Assembly: GCA_029245245.1 (NCBI GenBank)
Contig: JAQWPT010000006.1
Coordinates: 1 to 37,989, forward strand
Length of the DNA stretch: 37,989 bases
Source of the DNA: Phycisphaerales bacterium
Lineage (GTDB): Bacteria; Planctomycetota; Phycisphaerae; Phycisphaerales; SM1A02
Reading direction: 5' to 3'
Part shown: positions 36,275 to 37,989 of the stretch, piece by piece
Layout of the letters: each line of letters starts with the position of its first letter
How positions within the stretch are numbered: the stretch's first letter is position 1
Position numbers and translations under genes: made by a program
Notes under the pieces: generated by a model
What the model was told of the DNA's origin: nothing
What the model saw: the letters and a program-made list of their open reading frames with translations, nothing else
Databases searched by the model: none

Positions 36275-36892
36275 ATGGAAGCGAAACTCAAGTCCATTCT
36301 CCTCTTCGGCCAGCCCGGCGTCGGCAAGGGCACTCAGGGCGCAATCCTCGGGACCATTCCCGGCTTCTGCCACCTCGCCACCGGTGACATGTTCCGCGGC
36401 CTGGACCGGGAATCGGAACTGGGACGCGAGTTCCTCAAGTACTCCACGAAGGGGCTGCTGGTTCCTGACGAACTGACCTGTCGCCTGTGGCGCCAGTACG
36501 TTCAGGGGCTCATCGACACCAACAAGTATCTGCCTGGATCCCACGCCCTGCTCCTGGACGGCATCCCACGCAGCCCGGTGCAGGCAAAGACCCTCGACGA
36601 GCACATCGAGGTCCTGGCCATCATCCACCTGGTCTGCGAAGACGAAGAGGAACTCATTCAGCGCATGAAGCGCCGAGCCGAGATCCAGAACCGGCCCGAC
36701 GACGCCGACGAGTCGGTGATTCGCCGTCGCTTCGAAGTATTCCATACCGATACATCAAGGGTGCTCGAGCACTACGATCCATCGCTGATCCACACCGTCA
36801 CTGCCACGGGCGCCCCGGGCAAGATTCTGCTGAACATCCTGAATGTCGTCATTCCCGCCATGGAAGGCCACTTCGGCAACCCGCTGGGCTGA
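36275..36892 (+). CDS. adk: Adenylate kinase family nucleoside monophosphate kinase
   Basis: 205 residues from the ATG at 36275 (MEAKLKSILLFGQPGVGKGTQ, P-loop at 12-21). CHLATGDMFRG, the family motif LLLDGIPRSPVQAKTLDEHI and RRRFEVFHTDTSRVLEHY follow. The LID segment between RMKRRAEIQNRP and DDADESVIRRR is short and has no zinc cysteines, so this is a short-LID form. It transfers phosphate between ATP and AMP. The frame extends upstream to 36185, but the added residues cover the inverted repeats and do not resemble the family. It is a few dozen bases upstream of ssrA on the same strand. Confidence 0.88.
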   Translation: MEAKLKSILLFGQPGVGKGTQGAILGTIPGFCHLATGDMFRGLDRESELGREFLKYSTKGLLVPDELTCRLWRQYVQGLIDTNKYLPGSHALLLDGIPRSPVQAKTLDEHIEVLAIIHLVCEDEEELIQRMKRRAEIQNRPDDADESVIRRRFEVFHTDTSRVLEHYDPSLIHTVTATGAPGKILLNILNVVIPAMEGHFGNPLG

Positions 36893-36968: not shown

Positions 36969-37319
36969 GGGGCCGAATGGTTTCGACCGGGCAGGGAAGG
37001 CCTGTCGTTGCATGTCGTGGAGCATCCAGGCCACGTAAAAAGGATGCACACTTTTATCTGCCAACACGCAGTACGCACTCGCGGCCTGATATAGGTCCGC
37101 GACGGGTCACACTCGACGCCCGATAGAGTGTGCCCCGCTGACATCGGGCTGGTTCCAAGGCGCTGACATTCCTCCTTGGAATAAGACAACTGTCTGTCAT
37201 GGCTTCTTCACGTGGTGGGTCACCGAGCGGTGATGAGGCCGAGATTCAACTGGTGACTATGCATGTAGACGCGGCTTGCTGACTGTTTCGGCACGGGGGT
37301 TCGAATCCCCCCGGCTCCA
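36969..37319 (+). ncRNA. ssrA: Transfer-messenger RNA (tmRNA), one-piece form
   Basis: The 5' end GGGGCCGAATGGTTTCGACC and the 3' T-arm/acceptor GGTTCGAATCCCCCCGGCTCC-A are the tmRNA hallmarks; GGGGCCG pairs with CGGCTCC over seven bases (one G-U). GTAAAAAGGATGC precedes the mRNA-like part. The tag frame is GCC AAC ACG CAG TAC GCA CTC GCG GCC TGA (37060-37089), giving ANTQYALAA plus the charged alanine (AANTQYALAA). This is close to the AANDENYALAA type and ends in the protease-recognised ALAA. The tag stop is followed by pseudoknot-forming sequence. The discriminator A is followed by CTT, so CCA is not encoded. tmRNA with SmpB rescues stalled ribosomes; smpB is not in this window. Confidence 0.95.
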
Positions 37320-37324
37320 CTTTC

Positions 37325-37505
37325 GCCGTCCTTTGCGAACGGAACGGGTGTTCGAAGCCCGGAGCGAACCGATGGCTGCGCCTGTCGCCCTCGACGACCC
37401 ATGAAGGGTCGCCCTCGGGCACCAGGCATGGTCCTCGATCCGCTCCGGACTTCTCGGCACCACGCTCCGTTCGCGCAGGACGGCTTTTTCGTTTTTGGTT
37501 TTTGG
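37325..37505 (+). ncRNA. ~160-nt near-continuous hairpin with triple T-tract directly after ssrA
   Basis: The left arm from 37325 (GCCGTCCTTTGCGAACGGA) pairs with the right arm ending 37484 (TCCGTTCGCGCAGGACGGC). Pairing continues inward with few mismatches, for example GAAGCCCGGAGCG (37354-37366) with CGCTCCGGACTTC (37441-37453), GCCTG (37380-37384) with CAGGC (37423-37427), and the apical CGACCC-ATGAA-GGGTCG (37395-37411). The structure is closed by TTTTTCG-TTTTTGG-TTTTTGG (37485-37505). It behaves like an intrinsic terminator whose loop has grown to about 120 nt, or a distinct structured RNA. The pairing is directly visible; function and family are unknown. Confidence 0.6.
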
Positions 37506-37687: not shown

Positions 37688-37989
37688 CTAGTTTTCAGTA
37701 GCCCCATGATCTTTGAGTAACTTGATCATGTCACCTGATTCCGCAAGATCTAACGGAGTTTTACCATCCTTGTCTCTTGGCATGATTTTGCAATTAGCCT
37801 TTATCAGTAACTCCGCGATAAATATGCAATCCATATCTGCCGCCCAATGAAGTGGTGTTCTATGCCACTTTGAGCCGGTGGCGGAGACTTTGGCACCTGC
37901 TTCAATAAGAAGTTTAAACTGTTCAGTTACAGTTTTATGAAATCGCTCCATACTGATCTCAGGTTTGGCAGTTTGGTACACCCCGATCA
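37688..37989 (-). CDS. Ankyrin-repeat protein (possibly 5'-truncated by the right edge)
   Basis: At least 97 residues. Ankyrin-type repeats are visible: LLIEAGAKVSATGSKWHRTPLHWAADMDCIFIAELLIKA and NCKIMPRDKDGKTPLDLAESGDMIKLLKDHGA, with the canonical TPLHWAA and GKTPLDLA turns. The frame is open to the right edge; a GTG at 37981 and an ATG at 37951 are possible starts within the window, but more repeats could lie outside. Base composition is distinctly AT-richer than all other genes here, and codons end in A or T far more often, indicating acquisition from elsewhere. Ankyrin proteins mediate protein-protein contacts; no specific partner is indicated. The stop TAG leads into the ssrA-flanking accessory stretch. 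Confidence 0.75.
   Translation of the reverse strand, partial: IGVYQTAKPEISMERFHKTVTEQFKLLIEAGAKVSATGSKWHRTPLHWAADMDCIFIAELLIKANCKIMPRDKDGKTPLDLAESGDMIKLLKDHGATEN

Follow-up and report, generated by a model that had tools for sequence, protein, structure and literature searches.

Directly behind ssrA, the tmRNA gene near the end of the window (the whole 37,989-nucleotide stretch of DNA analyzed here), about 160 nucleotides fold back on themselves into a giant hairpin, and the question raised by this locus is what such a structure is and how it came to stand there. The original prediction offered three options, namely an expansion within the loop of a terminator, an inserted palindromic repeat, or an independent structured RNA cotranscribed with tmRNA. 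Long palindromes tend to be unstable in bacterial genomes, yet this one, of ~160 bp, is met repeatedly across a phylum, with covariation in the stem and common internal positions. On the analysis described below, the feature is very probably one copy of a Planctomycetota-wide hairpin repeat, mobile in at least one genome, located directly behind ssrA. The locus offers a concrete case of a mobile repeat found behind tmRNA and tRNA genes that may have taken over tmRNA termination.

Position and fold of the hairpin behind ssrA

The ssrA gene, encoding the tag ANTQYALAA, occupies positions 36969-37320 of the forward strand according to ARAGORN and matches Rfam family RF00023 with 146.8 bits at 36969-37322; ssrA scores above the curated cut-off in 83 of 101 genomes of the window's taxonomic family. 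Upstream on the same strand is an open reading frame named by eye as adenylate-kinase-like (36275-36892), the product of which is 89, 86, and 84% identical to its counterparts in G007, G050, and contig C51 of G085 by tblastn. Downstream of ssrA, an open reading frame that is ankyrin-repeat-like by eye (37688-37981, reverse strand) lies at the contig end.

The hairpin spans positions 37325-37484 of the forward strand and comprises a 5' arm (37325-37400), a 5-nt apical loop AUGAA (37401-37405), and a 3' arm (37406-37484). It is predicted to fold into a single unbranched structure of 61 base pairs at -103.2 kcal/mol, as anticipated for some 160 nt folding back around a 5-nt loop, except that several internal loops interrupt the pairing that had been described as near-continuous, and that the hairpin, placed correctly as immediately behind ssrA, begins 4 nt past the ARAGORN end of the gene rather than five. 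The arms at its base, 22 nt each, are 86% complementary according to an inverted-repeat finder. The segment 37315-37520 folds at -108.9 kcal/mol, in comparison to a mean of -75.8 (sd 4.4) for dinucleotide shuffles (z -7.5), and none of 200 shuffles folds as well. Three T5 runs follow directly at 37485-37505, reading TTTTTCG TTTTTGG TTTTTGG just as first described; relative G050 has two. The arrangement thereby has the form of an intrinsic terminator, a GC-rich hairpin paired up to 37484 with T5 at 37485-37489. Counting giant hairpins by the number of pairs in minimum-free-energy folds across 369 kb was uninformative because GC-rich sequence yields many long weak stems.

The regions downstream of 44 distinct ssrA genes were compared, of which 42 had enough downstream sequence to be scored and two (L081, L106) had been included because each contains a hairpin related to that of the window. 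At -103 kcal/mol the window hairpin is the most stable structure among the 42, and the structures ranking second to fourth by energy are also members of the repeat family described below, with 57, 55, and 39 pairs at -85, -78, and -47.5 kcal/mol, respectively. The best structure by energy outside the repeat family has 23 pairs at -40.0 kcal/mol, and another has 37 pairs but only -30.7 kcal/mol. A different long inverted repeat, ATTCGACTCGGGGCCGC..GCGGCCCCGAGTCGAAT, which encloses further hairpins, lies downstream of ssrA in G019 (L004). None of 4227 Rfam models overlaps the hairpin at E<=1, either in the window stretch or at 12 loci bearing relatives; the Rfam matches in those stretches, to tmRNA, tRNAs, and sub-threshold models, fall elsewhere.

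Two comparisons of ssrA loci in relatives bear on the origin of the hairpin. In the same-genus genome G050, ssrA is identical to that of the window's genome (G000) at 338 of 352 positions, and the two loci have in common the flanks CTCCACTT.C and TTTTT(C)GTTTTTG, between which G000 carries the 160-nt hairpin and G050 a 26-nt, 11-bp hairpin with a similar base. The lower stem GCCGTCC/GGACGGC with its T-run, previously singled out as terminator-like, does resemble this short terminator. The polarity of the difference is ambiguous, as insertion into a terminator and deletion leaving a remnant in G050 would both fit. Contig C51 of G085 and genome G004 provide a clean filled/empty comparison: when the C51 flanks are joined without the hairpin, 58 of 67 positions agree with the uninterrupted G004 sequence, and further downstream of the C51 hairpin lies an ordinary terminator.

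The G000 and C51 hairpins are 92.5% identical (148/160), whereas the corresponding ssrA genes are 80% identical (278/347). With the 12 differences between the hairpins, the number of pairs falls from 61 to 57 and the stability drops from -103 to -85 kcal/mol, which is not the picture expected of selection on pairing at this one locus. A second ssrA of G085 (contig C16, L038) has an ordinary terminator and is 77% identical to the ssrA on C51 (L037); given two ssrA genes in G085, C51 may be a co-binned contig. The gene upstream on C51 resembles the window's genus, and downstream the similarity is to G169 of genus g35. For G007, the third genome of the window's genus, the available sequence stops where ssrA ends.

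A dispersed repeat family with preserved pairing

The window hairpin is a single copy of a non-coding giant-hairpin repeat family with units of about 155-160 nt, of which no description was found in the open-licence papers searched, PMC10969869 among them. DNA searches of the 101 genomes of the taxonomic family returned matches in five (the window's own, G085, G035, G014, and G026). The match on contig C51 of G085 (93%) lies behind ssrA, and G035 has a 71% match behind ssrA together with a second copy elsewhere; the weak matches in G014 (L034) and G026 (L035) correspond to no convincing giant hairpin and were discarded. Covariance model R1, built from four copies, matches in 15 of 181 genomes of the taxonomic family. 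Model R2, built from 21 copies including that of the window, matches in at least 29 of the 181 and in at least 41 of 294 genomes sampled across the phylum Planctomycetota, counts that are lower bounds because just 10-16 candidates per genome were scored. The covariance search proposed at the outset found relatives well beyond the window. R2 scores the window copy at 116.9 bits on the forward strand and 15.5 on the reverse, and most matches listed exceed 40 bits; its best score elsewhere in the window's own genome (369 kb) is 15.3 bits, and DNA searches as well as searches with R1 and R2 found no second copy in that genome.

The 21-copy set (A6) consists of 26 matches minus five reverse-strand self-matches; L091 and L100 fell under the threshold, and L097 and L101 were left out. 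A set of 63 copies used below omits the copies of G052, a G007 match (60.6 bits), matches to the core only, and full-length R2 matches lacking a retrieved locus, and a set of 71 adds eight copies from genus g18, five of them core-only with approximate ends. A core pattern designed from copies already known occurs in 114 stretches of named genomes; among the 80 matches listed, 79 are titled Planctomycetota or one of its subgroups and one 'bacterium'. The same pattern, which misses the window copy, has 0 matches in viral contigs.

Judging from the alignments, pairing is preserved across the hairpin family through compensatory changes, as the original prediction had proposed to check. In a four-sequence alignment 19 of 61 pairs show two-sided changes; shuffles give 7.0 and slid controls 1 to 4. 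In an alignment of 21 sequences such changes are found in 26 of 32 pairs versus 21.9 in shuffles, a value reached by 1 of 500, and the alignment cells with two-sided changes number 183 versus 63.8 in shuffles and 19 to 50 when slid; the slid control favors the structures because these derive from the same sequences. Pairing is maintained in 89.8% of cells. The number of further pair types, 59 versus 53.7 in shuffles and reached by 30 of 500, is less striking. Positions invariant in the 21 copies are TCG within GTTCGA of the 5' arm, part of CTCGG in the 3' arm, and GANNC..GNNTC in the apical stem. Among 47 copies aligned to the model, mostly one per genome, identity reaches 90% or more in 14 of 158 columns and 75% or more in 40. 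Compensatory change could be mimicked if one arm were copied from the other, but such copying should remove conserved mismatches; these survive, which suggests a constraint acting on the folded strand.

Tandem arrangements were also observed. Head-to-tail hairpin arrays with 159- and 157-nt units occur in L188 (G018:C96, 1-323), where the array is cut by the contig start, and in L187 (G120:C22, 2037-2378), and six copies in genus g18 (L087, L088, L089, L098, L123, L126) run head-to-tail into a truncated second 5' arm with varying stop points.

Mobility in G052 and the sites of the copies

Mobility of the giant-hairpin family is shown in at least one genome that carries it, G052, an 88% complete draft. 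It contains 79 exact matches to the core motif (0 for the motif read backward as a control) and 58 to a 5' end. The copies are near-identical over ~156 nt, with ends of the form TAGAGCGG..CCGCTCTA, and have little in common beyond CTAG on either side. In the named record of G052, 42 aligned instances at 39 loci remain alike up to CTAG, or to just beyond it, at either end, so that sharp copy ends stand in unrelated flanks; in two further named record sets (17 and 13 instances) the ends are blurred yet visible. Among 22 full G052 copies with both flanks, TA is present on both sides in 13, ten of which read CTA..TAG, and is lacking on at least one side in nine. On contig C94 one copy is nested in the loop of another, reading GATCCTC-TA-[copy]-TA-GATCC, and the same loop is found uninterrupted as GATCCTCTAGATCC in four distinct copies; together these indicate insertion at CTAG with duplication of TA.

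Miniature inverted-repeat transposable elements (MITEs) are short, non-coding, and sharp-ended and occur in multiple dispersed copies, all of which holds for the repeat in G052, and the target-site duplication expected of them is present there as TA in one nested insertion; the window genome has one copy only. The window copy has no TA flanks, and TA lies near both ends in 14 of 63 copies from other genomes, so the TA rule fits some subfamilies and not the window copy. The evidence for mobility concerns the family in G052; the window copy is the sole copy found in its genome and is without the core motif.

Some of the copies outside G052 are found behind transcript ends. Twenty-two of the 71 copies (none from G052) lie directly behind a terminator or a tRNA/tmRNA 3' end on the same strand, compared with one in the mirrored arrangement: a sense terminator is just upstream in 14 (mirrored 1) and a tRNA/tmRNA-like 3' end in eight (mirrored 0). 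The terminator cases are unevenly spread, 12 belonging to genus g18 and two to g131; they include at least one site common to two genomes, and six of the 14 come from the eight g18 copies retrieved after the pattern had been noticed. A looser terminator scan over the 63 copies places a terminator upstream in 10 cases in sense and in 2 in antisense orientation, with 1 downstream in sense and 1 in the mirrored arrangement. The eight tRNA-like cases comprise four ssrA genes, a tRNA-Ala, and three fragments of the same kind of tRNA, and a ninth lies in a tRNA array of G184 identified by ARAGORN. Intact ssrA followed by a family copy occurs in four genomes among the loci examined (G000, G085, G035, and G169), and most copies are elsewhere.

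At L092 (G035:C13), L080 (G065:C48), and L082 (G168:C8) a related hairpin directly follows a ~48-nt tRNA 3' fragment, tRNA-Arg by eye, at which ARAGORN calls no gene; the upstream sequence is near-identical across the three genomes, which represent two genera, and gives the impression of a larger unit. In G169 hairpins are found behind an ssrA 3' fragment (recognized by eye) and behind intact ssrA (G169:C8 near 132457; G169:C1 near 555409). Some genes adjoining copies (L108 1620-3014, L106 11017-11742, L103 494-2791, and L104 718-3042) have similar signal-peptide-like starts and encode products resembling beta-helix repeat proteins by eye.

Alternative explanations and comparison with known systems

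Of the three options in the original prediction, the inserted palindromic repeat is supported by the dispersed relatives and by the sharp ends and TA nesting in G052. An expansion of the terminator loop is consistent with the window locus itself, where the hairpin base and T-runs resemble the short G050 terminator; nevertheless, an ssrA terminator grown in place by palindrome-correcting mutation and unrelated to mobile repeats is very improbable, since copies with common internal motifs are scattered over many genomes and loci other than ssrA, and the 92.5% identical C51 copy stands behind a diverged ssrA with its ordinary terminator further down. Growth by arm copying would also be expected to erase the conserved mismatched internal loops. 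The third option, an independent small RNA or processing or stability element cotranscribed with tmRNA and kept for its RNA function, has found no direct support, although the covariation, the conserved positions in and around internal loops, the strand-specific model score, and the uniformly sense orientation of the nine counted tRNA/tmRNA-adjacent copies are all compatible with it. The restriction of intact-ssrA copies to four genomes among the loci examined, the lack of an overlapping Rfam match, and the G052 ends and nesting, which point to a spreading element, make it unlikely.

The hairpins behind the tRNA fragments of G035, G065, and G168 in two genera, and the G169 copy behind an ssrA 3' fragment besides the one behind intact ssrA, might alternatively mark the attachment region of an integrative element targeting ssrA and tRNA 3' ends. 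This account, weakly tested in that integrases were sought only via the ORF tables of seven loci, is the least probable of those considered, because only a minority of the copies examined stand at ssrA or a tRNA and the unit that moves in G052 is ~156 bp long.

The preferred reading is therefore that a palindromic repeat was inserted behind ssrA and probably serves today as the end of its transcript, and a model of its action can be outlined. Transcription of ssrA would run through the hairpin, and the RNA would close up from the apical stem downward, reaching the GCCGTCC/GGACGGC base shortly before polymerase arrives at the T-runs, such that base and T-runs are predicted to act as the intrinsic terminator of ssrA; tmRNA 3' processing would then likely remove the hairpin. 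Copies behind transcript ends may be retained because they cause little damage at such sites or, alternatively, may reflect an insertion preference. A bolder and rather doubtful extension is that the family represents a phylum-wide mobile class whose unit is the folded hairpin, recognized in single-stranded form, DNA or RNA, by an enzyme that in some lineages would place it one-way behind transcript 3' ends; if so, the head-to-tail arrays of g18 with their truncated last unit would reflect copying of a rolling-circle type.

The failure to find a transposase in a genome that carries dozens of copies, together with the strand bias behind terminators in some lineages, raises the question of how the repeat moves and chooses its sites. 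The genomes searched for enzymes are incomplete drafts. IS630-type elements insert at TA with TA duplicated, and the corresponding DDE_3 domain was found in none of the seven hairpin-bearing genomes, G052 included, among eight searched, its sole match being in G015, which is without the hairpin. DDE_Tnp_1 (IS4/IS5-type) was absent from 10 of 12 genomes including G052, with matches in G045 and G029. Reverse transcriptase (RVT_1) was detected in one of 20 genomes searched (G425) and not in G052. Y1_Tnp matched in 21 of 37 genomes, with none in G052 or G000, and the surroundings (+-1.5 kb) of 30 Y1 loci in other genomes gave a best R2 score of 17.5 bits, slightly over the 15.3-bit background. A RAYT/REP system, in which a Y1 gene is flanked by repeats, was rejected on the basis of the lack of a Y1 match in G052 and G000 and of the negative result at the 30 Y1 loci. 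Thirty end loci in G052 contain full or partial copies only. Integron attC sites were likewise rejected, as both R boxes (RYYYAAC / GTTRRRY) are present on the arms in one of 63 copies.

Among known systems, group IIC introns insert behind terminators in sense orientation. They resemble the hairpin family in that a terminator stem-loop precedes the insertion site, as excerpted from PMC7923331, and differ in that the hairpin has no intron-sized RNA or protein and reverse transcriptase is found in one of 20 genomes. REP and TIR repeats, associated with RAYT and TIRYT tyrosine transposases, are similarly palindromic, mostly downstream of coding regions, and reported in Planctomycetes (PMC3733652, in part); REP elements are however 20-40 bp long, and no Y1 transposase match was obtained in 16 of 37 genomes searched, G052 included. 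The YPAL/RU-2 palindrome of Yersinia (~168 bp), compared by description only, is alike in length, in palindromic structure, in not being AT-rich, and in its targets at or beside dyad symmetry, and unlike in having no terminal TA and in producing duplications of 3-26 bp (excerpts of PMC2229807). The hairpin-forming bacterial MITEs ERIC (127 bp), Correia/NEMIS (107-155 bp), and RUP (107 bp), the last linked to IS630, are described in the same excerpted source (PMC2229807) and share with the present family a length of 100-200 bp, a non-coding and dispersed character, a long stem-loop, and, for the G052 subfamily, TA duplication. Unlike them, the hairpin family is GC-rich, palindromic over nearly its full length, and constant across the phylum at internal positions while its ends vary, and no cognate transposase was found in the genomes searched. 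By analogy, the family works like a bacterial MITE, one that is not to be filed under ERIC, NEMIS, or RUP.
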